A DNA stretch of 64,000 nt from a virus: IMG/VR virus record IMGVR_UViG_3300029258_001212, positions 62,001 to 126,000 of that record, one strand, 5' to 3'. The position numbers and the translations under genes were made by a program. This document shows positions 9,607-55,648 of the stretch, piece after piece. The notes under the pieces were generated by a model. It worked only from the letters and a program-made list of their open reading frames with translations. It was not told where the DNA came from and did no database searches. The first letter of the stretch is position 1; each line of letters opens with the position of its first letter.

Positions 9607-11058
9607 GTGGCCGGCGTGACCCCCACAGAGCCCTATGACTTCCTGGGGCTGATGATGCAGTGCAATGTCTACGCTGCGGACATCGGCAAGTGGGCCAGTT
9701 TCTCTGTGATGCCAGGCCAGGTGAAGCCGGCTGTCCACCTTCCGTGGTTCTCTTCGATGCAGCAAAAGGAGACCATGAGCGGCTTCGGGGAGGTGACGAT
9801 TAACCTCACTCCGCCCACCTACGAGGAAGCGTTACAGCTCCTCGGGTCTCACTGGCTCACCATCGGCAACACGATGGCGGTGCGCTGGGGCTACACGCGA
9901 CACGCCAGCCACCTTGGGCCGCTCAAATACTACATGATGCTCAAGCCGGACGTGAGCTTCGGGGACGAGTTCACCGTTTCGCTTCGAGGCACCAGCTTCG
10001 GGTGGCTCACGACGCAGCTCCAGAACCAGGATGCGCTGATCTGGAACCATACGTTCGCTGACAGCCAGGGCGGCAAGAAGCGAAAGAACCGGGCCACCTA
10101 TCGCCAGGTGATTGAGCTTGTCGCCAAGCGATACGGGTTCACCATCGACTGGAACGGTGACAAGAAGTATGACTCCAAGCGGTTCTCCCAGGACGCGCGA
10201 ACCATCCTGGACTCGGACAAGGAGCAGATCTGCCAGGGCGGACTGAACGATTGGCAGTTCCTGAAGCACCTGGCGGCGAGGTGCTGTTGCCGAGCCGTGA
10301 TCGTGGGGGGCAACGTGCTCCGGATCAGCGACGTGCGTGAGCCGAAGCAGGCAGACTGGACGTTCCGGTTCCGCGGCCAGCTCGACCTGGCCAACAACGT
10401 GATCCCGATGGACTCGTTCGATTCCGAGTCCACTGCGATGTTCCTGCCCGTGCGCGCGGCCGTGACCAGGTTCCTGGGGCCGGACGACAAGCGGGTGAAG
10501 CTCCACCCGACAGAGAAGACGGACATGGCCACCAGCAAGGCCAAGTCCTACAGCGGGAAGGATGCTCCGGCGGCGCCATCGGACCAGCCCGCCCAGCGCA
10601 GCCAGAGCGGCCAGAATCTACCGCACGATGCCAAGGGAAGTCAGAACGTGCCCATCCCCGGGCGTGAGCAGTTCATCGGGAGCAAGCTCAAGAACCTGTT
10701 TGACTACAACGCGGAGGCGCACGGGGCTAAGGCCAAGATTTCGAGCATCGGGGTGCCGTCTCTGCTACCTGACGACCTGGTGCGCGCCGAAGGGGTGGGG
10801 GACTACTTCACCGGGATGTACCGGGTGTTCGAAATCAACTGGTCCCTCGGTGAAAGCGTGGCGAAGCAGGACGTGGACCTGATGCCCAGGGGATTCCCCA
10901 GCGCCAGCATCGCCAACTGGATGAGCCAGCGCGCGAGCTCTCCCTACGTGGAAAAGGCGGCGAAGAAAGCTCTACAGAAGCGAGCGGCGGTAAGCACGGA
11001 CGCGAATTTCAACTGGACCCGGGAGCTGTACGGCCCCGGCGGGTGGTTTAGGGACTGA
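9607..11058 (+). CDS. Baseplate hub protein (gp27/gpD-like)
   Basis: A 483-residue protein starting at GTG just after the previous stop. It lies directly before the spike gene and overlaps it (TGATG), the usual position for the hub. The body has the hub pattern: an N-terminal beta region, a helical YRQVIELVAKRYGFTIDW segment near residues 160-180, NDWQFLKHLAAR around 217 and a C-terminal strand EGVGDYFTGMYRVFEINW. The region around residues 300-350 is serine, glutamine and proline rich, probably a linker. Confidence 0.78.
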   Translation: MAGVTPTEPYDFLGLMMQCNVYAADIGKWASFSVMPGQVKPAVHLPWFSSMQQKETMSGFGEVTINLTPPTYEEALQLLGSHWLTIGNTMAVRWGYTRHASHLGPLKYYMMLKPDVSFGDEFTVSLRGTSFGWLTTQLQNQDALIWNHTFADSQGGKKRKNRATYRQVIELVAKRYGFTIDWNGDKKYDSKRFSQDARTILDSDKEQICQGGLNDWQFLKHLAARCCCRAVIVGGNVLRISDVREPKQADWTFRFRGQLDLANNVIPMDSFDSESTAMFLPVRAAVTRFLGPDDKRVKLHPTEKTDMATSKAKSYSGKDAPAAPSDQPAQRSQSGQNLPHDAKGSQNVPIPGREQFIGSKLKNLFDYNAEAHGAKAKISSIGVPSLLPDDLVRAEGVGDYFTGMYRVFEINWSLGESVAKQDVDLMPRGFPSASIANWMSQRASSPYVEKAAKKALQKRAAVSTDANFNWTRELYGPGGWFRD

Positions 11059-11999
11059 TGGACGCCATCGACGCATTCCTGGGGTTCATTCAGAACCTCC
11101 GCATGTACGGCCTCGAGCACTATGACCGCTGGTATGGCCTCTACCGCGGCGTGTGCGAGGACAATGAGGACCCGGACATGAAGGGACGAATCATCGTGAG
11201 CTGCCAGGCGGTGGCCGGGGATGAGCTCCTGGCGGACTGGGCGTGGCCGGTGGCCCTCGGGGCCGGGGCCCAGGCGGGTATCTTCCATGTGCCAGCCGTA
11301 GGTGACCCCGTGATGATCGCCTTCGAGAACGGCGACTCCAGGTTTCCGATGTACGTGGGCGGATGGTGGGGTAAGCCGGACGGCGTGCTGGACACCCCGA
11401 GCTCCTGTCAGAAGAACCCCCCGCACGTGCGTGCGTGGACGACGCCCAACGGGCACGCCATCGAATTCTCGGATGACCCTGGCAAGGAGTCCGTCACGAT
11501 CAAGTGGCACCAGTCCAAGGACAACAGCCCGGACGGCGAGGACCGCTACAGCTTCATCAGCGTGGACAAGGACGGCTCGGTGCAGGTGCAGGACCACACG
11601 GGCACCAGCATCCTGTTGAACGCGGCAGATGGCAAGGAGGGGCTTACCCTTCGGGACTCCAACGGCAACATCGTGTCCACCGACAAGGATGGGATCAAGC
11701 TGGTCCAGTCGGACGGCGTGTTCATCGAAGCGAAGAAAGACTTGATCCAACTCGCGGGCAAATCAGTGACCGTGGCAGCGGAGGCGTTTGGGGTCACCGG
11801 GGGGAGCACCCTCGGGGACGGGGGCACCGAGCCCCTGGTGCTCGGCAACAAGCTCCTGGCGCTGTGGGGCAAGGCGGTGGCCATCTTCGCCAGCCACACG
11901 CACCCAACCTCATCGCCGGGGGCCCCAACTGGTCCCCCGGCCGGGGCGTGGCCGACGTACACGCCAGACGTGAACAGCACCACCAACAAGGGGAAGTGA
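11058..11999 (+). CDS. Baseplate spike protein (gp5/gpV-like)
   Basis: A 313-residue membrane-puncturing spike. The N-terminal part has the OB-fold pattern (YRGVCEDNEDPDMKGRIIV, GIFHVPAVGDPVMIAFENGD, YVGGWWG). The central part repeats short strands with D/N-G turns (DGSVQVQDHTGTSILLN, LRDSNGNIVSTDKDGIKL), expected for the triple-stranded beta-helix. The C-terminus carries SHTHP followed by a proline-rich PTGPPAG stretch, a motif commonly found at the spike end. It closes the first gene block; a 70-bp repeated element follows 5 bp after the stop. Confidence 0.82.
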   Translation: MDAIDAFLGFIQNLRMYGLEHYDRWYGLYRGVCEDNEDPDMKGRIIVSCQAVAGDELLADWAWPVALGAGAQAGIFHVPAVGDPVMIAFENGDSRFPMYVGGWWGKPDGVLDTPSSCQKNPPHVRAWTTPNGHAIEFSDDPGKESVTIKWHQSKDNSPDGEDRYSFISVDKDGSVQVQDHTGTSILLNAADGKEGLTLRDSNGNIVSTDKDGIKLVQSDGVFIEAKKDLIQLAGKSVTVAAEAFGVTGGSTLGDGGTEPLVLGNKLLALWGKAVAIFASHTHPTSSPGAPTGPPAGAWPTYTPDVNSTTNKGK

Positions 12000-12004
12000 A
12001 CCGG

Positions 12005-12073
12005 AGACCCTCAAGACTCTTCTCTTCTAAGAGGGGAGATAAGGTTAATTAAGCAGAAGCAACAGGCGTGCCA
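12005..12073 (+). promoter_or_regulatory. Repeated block-boundary element, copy 1
   Basis: First of six copies. It reads ACCCTCAAGACTCTT, a variable hairpin (CTCTT-CT-AAGAG inside), GGGGAGATAAGG, TTAATTAAG, CAGAAGCAACAGGC and GTGCCAA. It belongs to the CTCAAGACTC subclass. An ATG follows 3 bases after GTGCCAA, at 12078. It separates the spike gene from the wedge and fibre block. Confidence 0.75.
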
Positions 12074-12077
12074 ACTC

Positions 12078-12119
12078 ATGGTAGACATCGGAACAGCGAC
12101 TCAAGCGGCCTCGAAATGA
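12078..12119 (+). CDS. Short reading frame in phase with the proline-rich gene, ended by TGA
   Basis: The ATG at 12078 is spaced from the GTGCCAA of the repeated element just as the starts of other element-led genes are. It encodes 13 residues (MVDIGTATQAASK) and then TGA at 12117-12119. The same phase is then open through the whole proline-rich gene to 12494. This is either a leader peptide, a recently acquired nonsense codon, a stop that is read through, or a sequencing error. Confidence 0.4.
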   Translation: MVDIGTATQAASK

Positions 12120-12137
12120 GGGACGTGCCCACTGCCC

Positions 12138-12494
12138 GTGCCGGCAGTACCAGCGCCCCCGGCCATCCCCCCGGCCCCGACTCCGCCGGCTGTGCCAGAG
12201 CTCCCGGAGCCACCTGGTGCCCCGGCCTCGGTGCCCGTGGCGGCGGTGCCCCCGACGCCTACGCCGGCCATCCCGACTCCGCCGGCTATCCCGCCGTTGC
12301 CCACCCCGCCGTCTATCCCGGAGCTACCGGAGCCCCCAGCGGCCCCTGGGAGCATTCCGGTGGACGCGGCACCCCCAGTACCCCCGACACCTGTTCCGGC
12401 CATTCCAGCGCCCCCTGTGGTGCCCCCAGCGCCAGCTCTGCCCGAGGTGCCAGAGGTGCCGGAGCTGCCAGGGTGCCCACTGGACGAGGAGTAG
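12138..12494 (+). CDS. Proline-rich protein between spike and wedge genes
   Basis: A 118-residue product if translation starts at the GTG at 12138; no good ribosome site is seen for it, and the same frame extends back past a TGA to an ATG at 12078. The sequence is almost entirely P, A, V, E, L and T in two imperfect long repeats, each with IPPxPTPP, IPELPEPP and GxxPV segments. It ends with GCPLDEE. Proline-rich small proteins are found next to spike genes in several myoviruses, possibly at the spike tip, but no enzymatic role is visible. Confidence 0.55.
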   Translation: MPAVPAPPAIPPAPTPPAVPELPEPPGAPASVPVAAVPPTPTPAIPTPPAIPPLPTPPSIPELPEPPAAPGSIPVDAAPPVPPTPVPAIPAPPVVPPAPALPEVPEVPELPGCPLDEE

Positions 12495-12498
12495 CACC

Positions 12499-12900
12499 AT
12501 GACTGAACCTGCATACATCAACGGCACTGGCGCGACGGGTATCGCGTGGCCGTGGAGTTCCACAGGCCCCCAGGCGGTCACGGGCACTGACCTGGTGGAA
12601 GCCAAGATCAGCTTGGTGATTTTCACCTTCGTGGGCGTCCACAAGATGGAGCCGACGTTCGGATCCACAGTGCTTTCCCTGGTTTTCGAGAACATCGGGC
12701 CGATCATGCGAACGGCGGCAAGTATCGAGATCCGCAACGCATTGGCCACCTGGGTTCCGGACGTGGAAGTGGACGGGGTTCGGATCCTTGACGATGAGGA
12801 CGTTGAAGGGGGCGTTATCATTGAGGTAGACTACATCTACCTTGGGCAACCCAACACCTGGAGCCAGCCGGTGACCCCGCCGGCCGGTGGAGGCGCATAG
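12499..12900 (+). CDS. Baseplate wedge protein, gp25-like
   Basis: A 133-residue protein of the gpW/gp25 family. It shows the family's core: ISLVIFTFVGVHKMEPTFGSTVLSLVFE, in which the E-P-x-F-G-x-x-L segment is diagnostic, then IRNALATWVPDVEV and a final strand. The start ATG at 12499 has GAGGAG 6-11 bases upstream. It precedes the gpJ/gp6-like gene, the conserved order for contractile tails. Confidence 0.88.
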   Translation: MTEPAYINGTGATGIAWPWSSTGPQAVTGTDLVEAKISLVIFTFVGVHKMEPTFGSTVLSLVFENIGPIMRTAASIEIRNALATWVPDVEVDGVRILDDEDVEGGVIIEVDYIYLGQPNTWSQPVTPPAGGGA

Positions 12901-12901
12901 C

Positions 12902-15820
12902 ATGGCCGTCCTGGCGATCCCAGAATTCGATGACTATCCACTGGATCCGGAGCAGTGGTATCGCTTCTACCACACGGCCCTGGACCGGGTGTACGAGCAG
13001 ATCCTTCAGGCGGGATCCCAAGATCCGTCCACCATCGTGACGGCCACCGGAGCGGACCGCACCTCGGGCCTGGTAACCCTCACCACCACTACGGCCCACG
13101 GCCTGGCGGTGGGCGACACCATCACCGTGGCTGGGGTAACGGATCCGACCTTCGATGGCGAGTTCGTGGTGGCCAGCGTGCCCAGCACCACCAGCATCAC
13201 CTATGACCAGAGCGGCGCGGACGCCACCAGTGGATCTGGAACCATCACCCCGGCCTACCCCCGGTGGCAGGAGGTGACCACCGGCCGCGAGCTCCGCGCG
13301 GACGTGCGCGTGACCGACACCCTGGTCCGCTCCAAGTACGCCGGCCGCGACTACCAGACGTTCCTGGACGAGGGCCTGAGCTGGCTGGCCGAGAAGTACG
13401 GGGACCAGTTCACGGACTTCGTTGATTCCGATTTCGGAATCATGTTCGTGAAGTACGTGAGTTCCGCCCTGGACACCCTGAGCTGGTACATGGATAAGGA
13501 GGTGTCCGAGTGGTACTACTCGCTGATGCGCCTCCGGTCCCGGGCGGAGGAGCTCGCCCGGATGAGCGCCTACAAGCCCAGGAGCGCCACGGCCTGCACG
13601 GCGGACCTGACTCTGACCCTGGACGATGGGCCCTACGCTTTCGACATTACGGTGCCTGAGCGATTCCAGTTCCAGGGCCCGAACAGCCTGATCTTCGAGA
13701 TCACTCAGGACGTGACGTTCGCCGCGGGCGAGACCACCAAGACGGGCGTGCCGGCCACCCAGGGCCAGACCCTTCGGGACAGCGTGATCTCGGATGCGGC
13801 CCCTAACTTCCAGCTTCCGCTCACCAGCATCCTCGAGGACACCCAGGTGGCCCAGGATTCGGTGGAGGTGTACGTGGACGGGCAGCCATGGGAAGAGGTG
13901 GACTTCCTTCCGTTTGCCAAGGAGGACAAGGTGGAGGTGCTCTACGGGGCGGATCCTCCCTTCGTTCTCTTCGGTGACGGCGTGAGCGGCAACATCCCGG
14001 ATGCGGGCCTCACGTGCCTGGCGATCTACCGGGTGACCTACGGCAAGGCGGGCCTCGCGGCCACGGCCGGCACCATCGAACAGCCAGTGATCCCCCTGGT
14101 GGCCAACTCGCAGAGCATCGCCATCACGGCGAACAACCCCTCGGGGGCGCGCGGGGGCGTGGACCTGGAAACCCTCGAGGAGATCGTCAAGACGGCGCCA
14201 GCCTACTTCAAGACGGCGGACCGCGGCACCACCACGCAGGACATGACCACCCTGGCGGACTCCTACTCGAGCGGCACCTACGGCACCGTGGCCAAGGGGA
14301 AGGCGCACATCGTTCGGGGGATCTCGGATGACCTACAGCTCCAGGCCCTCCTGGCGTCCATTGACGGGCACGCCACGGACCTGGAGACGGCCATGACGGC
14401 CATCTCCACCTCGGTGGACGCTATCGCCACGGCGCGCGGCCTGGCGGCCACGCAGCTCGCGGCCATCACTACGGCCCAGGGCAACATCGACACCAACGTG
14501 ACGGCGATCAAGGGTGGTGTCACGCTTGCCACCGAGCACCTCGAGACGGCCAAGGAGGGGCTCGAGAACATCCCCTATCAACAGGTGTTCGCCCAGGCGG
14601 ATGGCGCCACGAAGGTCTGGAACAACGTCCAGCTCCAGAAAGGGGACATTTACCCCGGGACGGTGTTCCTGTGGGTGGACGACCTGAACGAAGAAACGAG
14701 CGTCAACGATGGCAACTGTGATGTGCAGCCCGGGCGAGTGCGCGTGGGATCTGCCATCTTCGAGGCCACGGATGTGGGGCGCCAGATCAAGATCGGTGAC
14801 CAGTTCCGAACCATCACGAAGTACACCAACACCACCGAGGTGACCTACTCCGGCTCGCTGATCTCCGGAACCAACCTCGAGGTGATCCTGTATGAGCAGA
14901 GCGTGTACGCGCGAGACGATGGCGCTGGCAACCTGTCCGGGCCTGGCGTCGTGTCCGGCGCTATCACCTACTCCACTGGCCTGGTGGACAGCCTCGAGCT
15001 CGCCGTGGAGCCCCCCGGAACCGGCCAGTATGGATCGAACATCTTGATCCAGTTCGGGGCCACCCAGACCGTGGCCACCCAGCCCATCGACAACGCGATC
15101 ACCGAGCTCGACGCCATCGACACCACGGCGGACTCCATCTCGGACGAGACGGGGGACATTTCCGACGCGGTAACCGAGGCCACCACGCAGCTCGTGGCCA
15201 TCGCCACCCAGGAAACGACCATCGACACGGCCATGGACACGGTGCTCGCCATCCCGGCCAGCATCGAAGACGACGTGGAGGAGCTCGAGGCGTACCTAGA
15301 CGCCAACCTGAGCGCGGACTGCAAGGCGAACATCGTGATGGTCCAGGTGCTGGTGGTGGACGAAAACGGCTTCTACGCCGCGCCCAGCCAGACCCTCCTC
15401 ACGGCTGTCCAGGAGTACCTGGACGAGCGCAATGTGCTCCCCACCACCGTGACAGCCGTGAACGGCTACTACAACCTGGTGGCCGTGAACATGCTGGTCC
15501 AGGTGAGCATCCTGAAGCCGTACCTCTACTCCAAACAGCTCCCCTCAATCCAGGCGGCCATCGACGCGGAGCTCAAGGGACGCGACTACGGTGTGAACCT
15601 GAACCGAAGCGACTACTACAACCGGGTGGTGCCGGACAAGACGACTGGCATTGGTGGAGTGGAAGGCGTTGACTACGCCAACATCACGATCACAGCCACC
15701 AGCTACCCGGATCCGGCCAACACCGGAACGCCACCGAGCGTGGACGCAAACGGAAACCTGGTGATCCCGGACACGCTGATCATCACCAGGGGAACCATCA
15801 CGTATGAGGAGATCGTCTAA
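12902..15820 (+). CDS. Large baseplate wedge protein, gp6/gpJ-like
   Basis: A 972-residue wedge protein. The conserved baseplate J features are LYGADPPFVLFGDGVSGNIPDAG, YRVTYGKAGL, and NNPSGARGGVDLETLEEIVKTAPAYF read as consecutive pieces around residues 340-440, plus a C-terminal domain with YLDERNVLPTTVTAVNGYY. It is longer than usual because of insertions: an N-terminal beta module (about 40-115), an alanine- and threonine-rich predicted coiled coil (about 480-560), a DDGxGNLxG beta module (about 660-720) shared with the sheath and fibres, and a second coiled coil (about 730-800). Start chosen at 12902, two bases after the gp25-like stop. Confidence 0.88.
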   Translation: MAVLAIPEFDDYPLDPEQWYRFYHTALDRVYEQILQAGSQDPSTIVTATGADRTSGLVTLTTTTAHGLAVGDTITVAGVTDPTFDGEFVVASVPSTTSITYDQSGADATSGSGTITPAYPRWQEVTTGRELRADVRVTDTLVRSKYAGRDYQTFLDEGLSWLAEKYGDQFTDFVDSDFGIMFVKYVSSALDTLSWYMDKEVSEWYYSLMRLRSRAEELARMSAYKPRSATACTADLTLTLDDGPYAFDITVPERFQFQGPNSLIFEITQDVTFAAGETTKTGVPATQGQTLRDSVISDAAPNFQLPLTSILEDTQVAQDSVEVYVDGQPWEEVDFLPFAKEDKVEVLYGADPPFVLFGDGVSGNIPDAGLTCLAIYRVTYGKAGLAATAGTIEQPVIPLVANSQSIAITANNPSGARGGVDLETLEEIVKTAPAYFKTADRGTTTQDMTTLADSYSSGTYGTVAKGKAHIVRGISDDLQLQALLASIDGHATDLETAMTAISTSVDAIATARGLAATQLAAITTAQGNIDTNVTAIKGGVTLATEHLETAKEGLENIPYQQVFAQADGATKVWNNVQLQKGDIYPGTVFLWVDDLNEETSVNDGNCDVQPGRVRVGSAIFEATDVGRQIKIGDQFRTITKYTNTTEVTYSGSLISGTNLEVILYEQSVYARDDGAGNLSGPGVVSGAITYSTGLVDSLELAVEPPGTGQYGSNILIQFGATQTVATQPIDNAITELDAIDTTADSISDETGDISDAVTEATTQLVAIATQETTIDTAMDTVLAIPASIEDDVEELEAYLDANLSADCKANIVMVQVLVVDENGFYAAPSQTLLTAVQEYLDERNVLPTTVTAVNGYYNLVAVNMLVQVSILKPYLYSKQLPSIQAAIDAELKGRDYGVNLNRSDYYNRVVPDKTTGIGGVEGVDYANITITATSYPDPANTGTPPSVDANGNLVIPDTLIITRGTITYEEIV

Positions 15821-19917: not shown

Positions 19918-20910
19918 ATGGCTCGGTATGGATTCGGAAATCGTGCGTTCGGGACGACCCCCTTCGGGGAGAGCGACTGGTGCAAGATCGTCCTGTACGA
20001 TGAGCTCCCGGGTGATGTGCGTCAGCAGGATGTGGATGCCGGGGGCCCGTACCTGAAGTTCGTGGAGGCAATGTGCCCCAGCTTCACCTGGCTCAAGCGG
20101 CACCTGGACCGGTTCAAGTACATCACCAATCCGAGGGAGATCCGTGAGGATCTCCTCCTGTACCTCGGGGAGAATTTCGGGATCACCGTGGACTTGGCCG
20201 AACCCCTCGGTTACCAGCGGATGCGAGTGGGCCTCGCTGCCAGGTGGAACATCATCAAAGGCACCCTCGAGTCCTACGTGGTGCTGTGCAGGGTTCACGG
20301 CTTCGAGGTGGACGTTCATCCGCTCTGGTGGGATGGGATCAAGTACCTTACGACGCCTCCGGTGGTGGGCGGGGAAAGTCCGACCTACCAGCGCACGGTG
20401 TCCGTCGATACCCAGTACAAGATCTGGCTCCAGTGCGCGCCAGCGGAGCCGAGTTCGGTGGTGATCACCATCGCTGGCAACACGATCACCGATGACGGTG
20501 ACGGCAAGCTCCTGGTGGGAGTCACCGAGGTGGGCACGATTGACTACGGCTGGGGCTACGCGGACCTGACGCTGACTGGGGTGGTCACCGGAGCCCCGAA
20601 GGCCACCTATCAGAGCGTGGTGGGCGGGTGCGTGGAGACGTGCCGGAAGTGCAAGACGCACAGGATCAGACTCGACATTACCACCGGGACCATCGGTGGC
20701 CAGAGCGAGCTCACCATTGCGGATGCCTTCAAGCGCATGTGGCGGAAGATCGGGCTGGACACTGGCGATGGCGTGGTGCCGATCCATGTGGAGCTCGAGT
20801 ACATCGTGGCGGAGGACACGGCCGTGGCCAGCATCGGGCATCGCTATGACATTCTGGCGGACAGCGAGGTGTCCGCTGATTCCGGTTTCCGGGCAGAGGT
20901 GGTTTCCTGA
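19918..20910 (+). CDS. Baseplate/tail protein, gpI-like
   Basis: A 330-residue protein. The N-terminal half follows the P2 gpI pattern: KYITNPREIREDLLLYLGENFGI, then GYQRMRVGLAARWNIIKGTL followed by SYVVLCRVHGFEVDVHPLWW. The R-x-x-I-x-K-G-T and G-F-x-V-x-V...W features are diagnostic. A DDGxGKLLVG...GTIDY...ATYQ beta module interrupts it (about residues 178-232). It is the first gene after repeated element copy 2 and probably bridges baseplate and the fibres encoded downstream. Confidence 0.65.
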   Translation: MARYGFGNRAFGTTPFGESDWCKIVLYDELPGDVRQQDVDAGGPYLKFVEAMCPSFTWLKRHLDRFKYITNPREIREDLLLYLGENFGITVDLAEPLGYQRMRVGLAARWNIIKGTLESYVVLCRVHGFEVDVHPLWWDGIKYLTTPPVVGGESPTYQRTVSVDTQYKIWLQCAPAEPSSVVITIAGNTITDDGDGKLLVGVTEVGTIDYGWGYADLTLTGVVTGAPKATYQSVVGGCVETCRKCKTHRIRLDITTGTIGGQSELTIADAFKRMWRKIGLDTGDGVVPIHVELEYIVAEDTAVASIGHRYDILADSEVSADSGFRAEVVS

Positions 20911-36413: not shown

Positions 36414-36485
36414 GACACCCTCTTGACTCTTATTCCCCTACAAGGGGAGATAAGGTTAATTAAGAAGAAGCAATGAGCGTGCCAA
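36414..36485 (+). promoter_or_regulatory. Repeated block-boundary element, copy 4
   Basis: First copy of the CTCTTGACTC subclass. CTTAT-T-CCCCT pairs with AGGGG-AG-ATAAG with a T/AG bulge. GGTTAATTAAG, AAGAAGCA and GTGCCAA (36479-36485) follow. The ATG of the next gene (36473) lies inside the element, at AGCAATGAGC. It begins 1 base after the previous stop. Confidence 0.75.
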
Positions 36486-42286: not shown

Positions 42287-42294
42287 GACCATCT

Positions 42295-42376
42295 GGAAGT
42301 TTTCTTCTACATGGTCAGGAAGTTTTCTTCTACATGGTCAGGAAGTTTTCTTCTACATGGTCAGGAAGTTTTCTTC
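42295..42376 (+). repeat. Tandem 23-bp repeat array
   Basis: Three perfect head-to-tail copies of GGAAGTTTTCTTCTACATGG plus TCA (42295-42317, 42318-42340, 42341-42363) and a partial fourth copy (42364-42376). Each contains the small dyad GAAG-TTTT-CTTC. The array is AT-rich compared with its surroundings and lies in the 354-bp gap before the GHKL gene. Confidence 0.9.
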
Positions 42377-55136: not shown

Positions 55137-55206
55137 ACACCCTCTTGACTCTTACTCCTCAAGAGGGGAGATAAGGTTAATTAAGCAGAAGCAATGAGCG
55201 TGCCAA
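55137..55206 (+). promoter_or_regulatory. Repeated block-boundary element, copy 5
   Basis: CTCTTGACTC subclass. 5' arm CTTA-CTCC pairs with GGAG-A-TAAG. TTAATTAAGCAGAAGCA and GTGCCAA (55200-55206) follow. It contains the same AGCAATGAGCGTGCCAA as copy 4, but here the ATG opens only five codons (MSVPT) before TGA; the next gene starts at TTG 55208. Confidence 0.75.
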
Positions 55207-55207
55207 C

Positions 55208-55648
55208 TTGAAACCGAAGCGACAGCGCGGTCAGCAGCCCACCCTCAAGCGGCGGTGGCTTGACCAGGAGACCGATGGCCGGAGCACCCCAAGGAGCGTG
55301 AAGCGCCAGGAGCGCCACCTGGGCAAGCTGATGGGCGGGCGGCGCCGCCCAGGGTCCGGGAGCAACAAGCTCGCCCCCGGGGATGCAGTGGGGCGCTTCG
55401 AGCTCGGGGAGGCAAAGCAGACGGCGGCGAAGTCCATCAGCATCAAACGCGCCTGGCTGGCCCAGATCGAAAACGAGGCGGCCGGGGAGGGGCGCGTGCC
55501 GGTGTTCCACCTCGAGTGGATCGGCTTCGAGGGGGACCCGGAGTGCAAGTTCATGACACCCGGCTGGGCGATGGTTCCGGACTGGTATTTGGCGAAGCTC
55601 ATGGAGGCGTACCATGCGGGAGATGGTGACGTGGAAGGCTCTGAATGA
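55208..55648 (+). CDS. Holliday-junction-resolvase-like PD-(D/E)xK nuclease
   Basis: A 146-residue protein starting at TTG one base after the GTGCCAA of the repeated element. The family signature is RQERHLGKLMGGRRRPGSGS, then D in APGDAVGRF, then E-x-K in FELGEAKQT, then SISIKRAWLAQIENEAAGEG and VPVFHLEWIG, ending WAMVPDWYLAKLM. This is the small phage resolvase/restriction-fold family with conserved PGSG...GD...ExK...S-I-x-x-x-x-x-L. It would resolve branched DNA before packaging. Confidence 0.65.
   Translation: MKPKRQRGQQPTLKRRWLDQETDGRSTPRSVKRQERHLGKLMGGRRRPGSGSNKLAPGDAVGRFELGEAKQTAAKSISIKRAWLAQIENEAAGEGRVPVFHLEWIGFEGDPECKFMTPGWAMVPDWYLAKLMEAYHAGDGDVEGSE

Follow-up and report, generated by a model that had tools for sequence, protein, structure and literature searches.

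A TGA (12117-12119) lying in frame within a proline-rich gene of this phage appears to be a conserved recoding site, and we put the chance that its UGA is translated through at slightly better than even. The stretch analysed (the window, 64,000 nt) covers bases 62001-126000 of virus record IMGVR_UViG_3300029258_001212, which is 153,540 bases long; matches to a portal, a T4-type major head protein and baseplate proteins mark its source as a tailed phage. Ribosomes would start at ATG 12078, pass the UGA at some rate and produce one protein of 138 residues, made up of 13 leader residues, the residue inserted at the UGA, G-T-C and a proline-rich rod ending in PGCPLDEE; selenocysteine is the most specific decoding that fits, and would create a U-G-T-C motif. 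The features of the region are listed in Table 1.

Table 1. Features in and around the proline-rich gene (window coordinates)
Feature	Position	Strand	Basis or remark
gpV-like baseplate spike gene (OB domain)	11058..11999	+	Pfam PF04717, E 3.2e-18; ends in TGA; same frame as the ATG 12078 ORF
Repeated element: short inverted repeat, then GATAAGGTTAATTAAGCAGAAGCAA...GTGCCAA	12008..12074	+	
Leader, 13 codons MVDIGTATQAASK	12078..12116	+	MVDLGTATQAASK in relative; 5 substitutions (1/0/4 by codon position)
Proposed site of recoding as Sec or another residue: conserved TGA in frame	12117..12119	+	Identical in relative
Proline-rich ORF after TGA, ends in TAG	12120..12494	+	Substitution pattern; composition
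SECIS-like candidate hairpin ACTGCC-CGTGCC-GGCAGT	12131..12148	+	Loop begins 17 nt past TGA
In-frame GTG, start codon under the re-initiation alternative	12138..12140	+	
gp25/gpW-like baseplate wedge gene	12499..12900	+	Pfam PF04965, E 1.6e-10; PHROG 43
gpJ-like baseplate wedge gene	12902..15820	+	PHROG 219; 38% identical homologue in G007 (IMG/VR 3300036715_001368)

The arrangement of an ATG, 13 codons, a TGA and a long proline-rich open frame is as the preliminary description reported it, with 124 sense codons (12120-12491) downstream of the TGA and a TAG at 12492-12494. Its translation is MVDIGTATQAASK*GTCPLPVPAVP...PELPGCPLDEE, the asterisk marking the TGA. Proline accounts for 52 of the 124 residues after the TGA, and there are exactly two cysteines, at residues 3 and 119, with CPL occurring at both ends (TCPLP and GCPLD). 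Neither this ORF nor the read-through protein matches any Pfam or PHROGs family at E-values up to 10.

The TGA is carried by two genomes only, the second being the sole close relative found (IMG/VR 3300028920_000034, 153,114 bases), which was separately assembled and encodes a gpJ-like protein 98% identical to that of the window. Each end of the relative's contig aligns to one and the same 147-base stretch in the window's record (140762-140908), so the contig is apparently terminally repeated and would represent a complete, circularly permuted genome. The ATG, the TGA and the TAG are all kept in the relative and there is no gap inside the ORF, in which 88 of 417 bases (21%) differ. These changes fall 15, 15 and 58 times at the first, second and third codon positions. 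Read in the proline frame, they give 47 synonymous and 25 non-synonymous codons, as against 4/66 and 8/61 in the other two plus-strand frames. This substitution pattern identifies the proline-rich frame as the one that is translated. DNA conservation is also seen elsewhere in the region, for example in the last 24 bases, and low divergence just past the TGA is thus not specific to that site.

The same comparison disposes of two other accounts. One takes the real gene to be an overlapping frame that starts at ATG 12116 and is open to 12502, an idea with some appeal since a stop-start overlap (ATGA in the window, GTGA in the relative) and an open frame are present in both genomes; it is rejected by the substitution pattern, with 61 of 69 changed codons non-synonymous compared with 25 of 72 in the proline frame, and we consider it very improbable. 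The other is that the TGA is a sequencing error or a recent nonsense mutation, for which there is no support beyond the stop itself. Conservation of the TGA at 21% divergence of the gene, together with a purifying pattern on both sides of it, makes an error or pseudogene scarcely credible unless one error is common to both assemblies. The preliminary description had offered the alternatives of a gene interrupted or read through, and it is the second half of this proposal that fares better.

We also scanned the record against 3300028920_000034 for conserved in-frame stops flanked on both sides by a coding signal in the same frame. There were 44 such rows, of which the 34 on the minus strand were put aside collectively as antisense shadows of plus-strand genes. 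Nine of the ten plus-strand rows are simply adjacent genes, with an in-frame ATG 0-9 nt past the stop, and the TGA at 12117-12119 is the only one without such an ATG. Reassignment of TGA as a sense codon throughout the phage is the least credible of all the explanations weighed and is excluded by stop usage: TGA is the commonest stop, ending 94 of 174 called ORFs (a list made by a crude calling rule that contains spurious ORFs), including the neighbouring spike gene, and 78 of those 94 are TGA in the relative too.

The leader differs between the two genomes by five base changes, four of them silent changes at third positions and the fifth an Ile to Leu replacement. Under simple nulls, P is 0.045 for four of five changes falling at third positions and 0.029 for no more than a single amino-acid change; the leader therefore evolves like a protein, although over a stretch as short as 13 codons this evidence is suggestive, not strong. 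Downstream of the TGA the earliest in-frame ATG, GTG or TTG is GTG 12138, and no Shine-Dalgarno-like word is found 3-12 nt upstream of it, in agreement with the earlier observation that no good start with a ribosome site follows the TGA. Of 47 genes of the phage hand-picked for comparison, mostly from the 174 called ORFs, 43 begin at an ATG and 29 are preceded by a Shine-Dalgarno-like word.

A real possibility, though one to which we give clearly less than an even chance, is that the 13 codons form a short separate ORF encoding a leader peptide, that ribosomes stop at the TGA and re-initiate at GTG 12138 or CTG 12132, and that the protein has 118-120 residues with nothing recoded. GTG 12138 is kept in 3300028920_000034, a GAGG overlapping the TGA lies 10 nt before CTG 12132, and short ORFs occur at other copies of the upstream element (for example, MSVPT-stop at 55194). 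Conservation in a relative of both the TGA and a GTG start downstream of it had been put forward in advance as evidence against read-through and is literally what we find, but this does not settle the matter, since GTG 12138 is also a plain Val codon of the V-P repeat, has no ribosome site at the usual distance and, as a start, would lose the N-terminal cysteine (codon 12126). The protein-like conservation of the leader would moreover need a separate reason.

The importance of that cysteine emerges from a more diverged genome, G007 (IMG/VR 3300036715_001368, 159,018 bases), which was reached via its capsid protein and has 51% identity to the window's phage in the capsid, 39% in V and 38% in J. 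In G007 a proline-rich gene of 133 residues (L058:10644-11045) starts with a GTG 9 bases beyond the spike gene; its product begins VSLPC and contains exactly two cysteines, at residues 5 and 114, so that the protein starts four residues before the first of them. It shares with the window gene its slot, a similar length and two cysteines near the ends; it differs in having its own GTG start right after the spike gene and in lacking a leader, a UGA and, in the stretches scanned, the repeated element. Identity between the two proteins is low (27%) and driven by composition, and the proposed homology of the genes is based on position, composition and the cysteine pair. A GTG-started gene without a leader is in keeping with re-initiation in the window; however, a start at GTG 12138 would remove the cysteine matching the N-terminal one of G007. 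Because codon 12126 lies upstream of GTG 12138, this cysteine would be kept only by read-through or by initiation at an unusual non-AUG codon, for example ACG 12123. The conserved TGA, the coding frame, the conserved leader and the G007 cysteine pair, with the first cysteine ahead of the usual starts, are what lead us to favour translation through the UGA. As G007 has neither leader nor UGA, the extension is specific to the element-bearing lineage, and it could be regulatory.

Other genomes vary in what they carry between the spike and gp25-like genes. Seven further relatives were found by major capsid protein (51-72% identity), and a homologue of V or J is present in one of the seven records, G007. 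Over 11,583 compared bases, L060 does not differ from G007; in L062, whose J is 34% identical, the slot contains no proline-rich gene. We note that a second small gene is found between the spike and gp25-like genes at L058:11053-11520 and at about 3541-4032 of L062, encoding AYDKY/AYDNY proteins; the L058 copy, the one scanned, has no confident Pfam or PHROG match. In LR756511, GXN1 and MN1 the gpV-like gene adjoins the gp25-like gene and the slot is empty, while in DP-2017a it holds a 73-residue protein without cysteine. Two Alishewanella phages were matched, and Slickus01, the one examined, has a slot protein of 284 residues with cysteines at residue 4, next to the end and elsewhere, which is too dissimilar to be taken as a homologue. 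Scans of viral_contigs gave no close relative besides 3300028920_000034, two scans of genome_contigs gave 112 and 27 stretches matching a pattern with no relative confirmed among them, and a tblastn search of phages with the N-terminal 33 residues gave nothing.

The ATG at 12078 lies 3 nt past the conserved GTGCCAA of a repeated element. The record has 12 copies of this element, eight on the plus strand and four on the minus strand, and six of the 12 lie in the window. Plus-strand copies include those at window positions 12038, 19877, 36449, 55170 and 63827; those on the minus strand (G000:C1:1031, 38367, 53361 and 139349) sit in gaps between called plus-strand genes and are oriented against them. 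It had been proposed that the position of the ATG relative to the element matches that in other element-led genes. This is true in part: starts are similarly placed at 19918 (ATG at +4), 28593 (ATG at +1) and 55208 (TTG at +1), but the gene start at 36473 falls within the element and several copies have no start at that place. Many copies include a short inverted repeat of varying sequence, such as CTTATCTCT...AGAGATAAG in stretch L009. No sigma-70-type promoter matched at the two copies scanned and no intrinsic terminator matched at 12008..12074; a transcription attenuator was also considered and rejected, there being no terminator-like site across 11900-12600. The element could be a phage promoter, a processing site or a regulator site. 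At another copy, the following gene begins with a TTG that is overlapped, in both genomes, by a 5-codon ORF (MSVPT-TGA; 55194-55211), and this may be a case of a leader or of re-initiation. Elsewhere in the window, 42292-42376 is a 23-base tandem repeat of TCAGGAAGTTTTCTTCTACATGG units.

By gene position, the likeliest role of the proline-rich protein would be as a spike-tip or spike-associated rod or baseplate protein. In Bacillus phage SP-15 the same slot is occupied by a PAAR protein, SP15_052, which also lies between gpV-like and gp25-like genes and has a proline-rich stretch; unlike SP15_052, the window protein has no PAAR match in Pfam or PHROGs. Spike-tip proteins are present in few copies per virion, and this bears on a further way in which the UGA might be passed, namely ordinary read-through at a few percent by a near-cognate tRNA (e.g. 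Trp), which would keep a low-copy tip protein scarce. The retained TGA, the coding frame and the sole plus-strand case in the scan agree with this as well as they do with any translation through the UGA, and the PAAR tip protein in the SP-15 slot is in its favour. It leaves the U-x-x-C motif and the hairpin unexplained, and the product of stopping would be a useless 13-mer; we regard it as unlikely.

Decoding of the UGA as selenocysteine would make the protein a selenoprotein and part of the virion, with Sec in a U-G-T-C near the N-terminus, inserted by the selenocysteine machinery of the host under the direction of a phage SECIS within the proline-rich coding sequence. We put this forward tentatively and give it well under an even chance. 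The UGA is followed by a cysteine at +3 in both genomes, and the chance of a cysteine at +3 or -3 from a UGA is about 0.029; a redox-type UxxC or CxxU is common, if not invariable, in bacterial selenoproteins. The candidate hairpin has a G and then a U early in its loop and forms six pairs in the window and five in 3300028920_000034, where the outer A-U pair is lost without compensation; there is no covariation. The bSECIS constraints given in the parts of PMC13188914 drawn on here are a stem of 4-16 bp, a loop of 3-9 nt with a G in the first two places, a loop position 16-37 nt after the UGA and an MFE of at most -7.5. Both hairpins satisfy them, as do 65-87% of controls for the stem, loop and spacing part, and the N1-N2 pair of the bSECIS loop is absent. 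More exactly, a loose model of stem, loop and spacing is satisfied by 64.9% of 4,138 TGA triplets and 87.4% of 5,000 synonymous shuffles, and a stem of at least six Watson-Crick pairs closing a G[GU] loop is found in 1.7% and 12.6%, respectively. An equally good hairpin in the same place in both genomes accompanies 17 of 1,526 conserved plus-strand TGA triplets, 12117 included, and the 66-base folds are not unusual (z -0.41 and +1.42). The GC-rich sequence forms such hairpins often, and SECIS-like predictions are stated to increase with GC content (PMC12013277). A TGN-degenerate scan of viral_contigs and tblastn of phages found no homologue with Cys or any other residue aligned at the UGA. No tRNA-Sec, nor any other tRNA gene, was found in either 153-kb genome, and no SelB wing domain was found in the record.

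If the UGA is passed, gene callers would overlook where a structural protein of this group of phages really begins, and a spike or baseplate component would be under the control of a recoded stop. Should the inserted residue be selenocysteine, this would be the first phage-encoded selenoprotein in a virion as far as the open-licence literature searched shows, none having been described there, and the phage would need selenium-using hosts for a structural protein.

In phage Qbeta, read-through of a UGA yields A1, a minor coat protein and virion component, and the likeness to the present case is that a UGA would be passed to give a minor virion component; the differences are that the stop product there is a functional coat protein whereas here it is a 13-mer, and that the window phage is a DNA phage. 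Read-through in Qbeta is mentioned in PMC8310308, where the poxvirus glutathione peroxidases also figure as a viral selenoprotein case. A phage link to selenocysteine is provided by the Basilisk-like Bacillus phages, in which a tRNA-Sec gene is reported (PMC6145125); those phages carry the tRNA, whereas the window phage has only a candidate Sec codon. Bacterial selenoproteins, many families of which contain a UxxC motif according to the tables of PMC9312934, differ from the window protein, which belongs to no Pfam or PHROGs family, is of proline-rich low complexity, is encoded by a phage and would have its Sec near the N-terminus, at a site with no Cys homologue found. The window gene has in common with the genes of those families a UGA in frame, coding sequence on both sides of it and a potential UxxC, and also a candidate SECIS-like hairpin with its loop 17 nt past the UGA and a G-U early in that loop.
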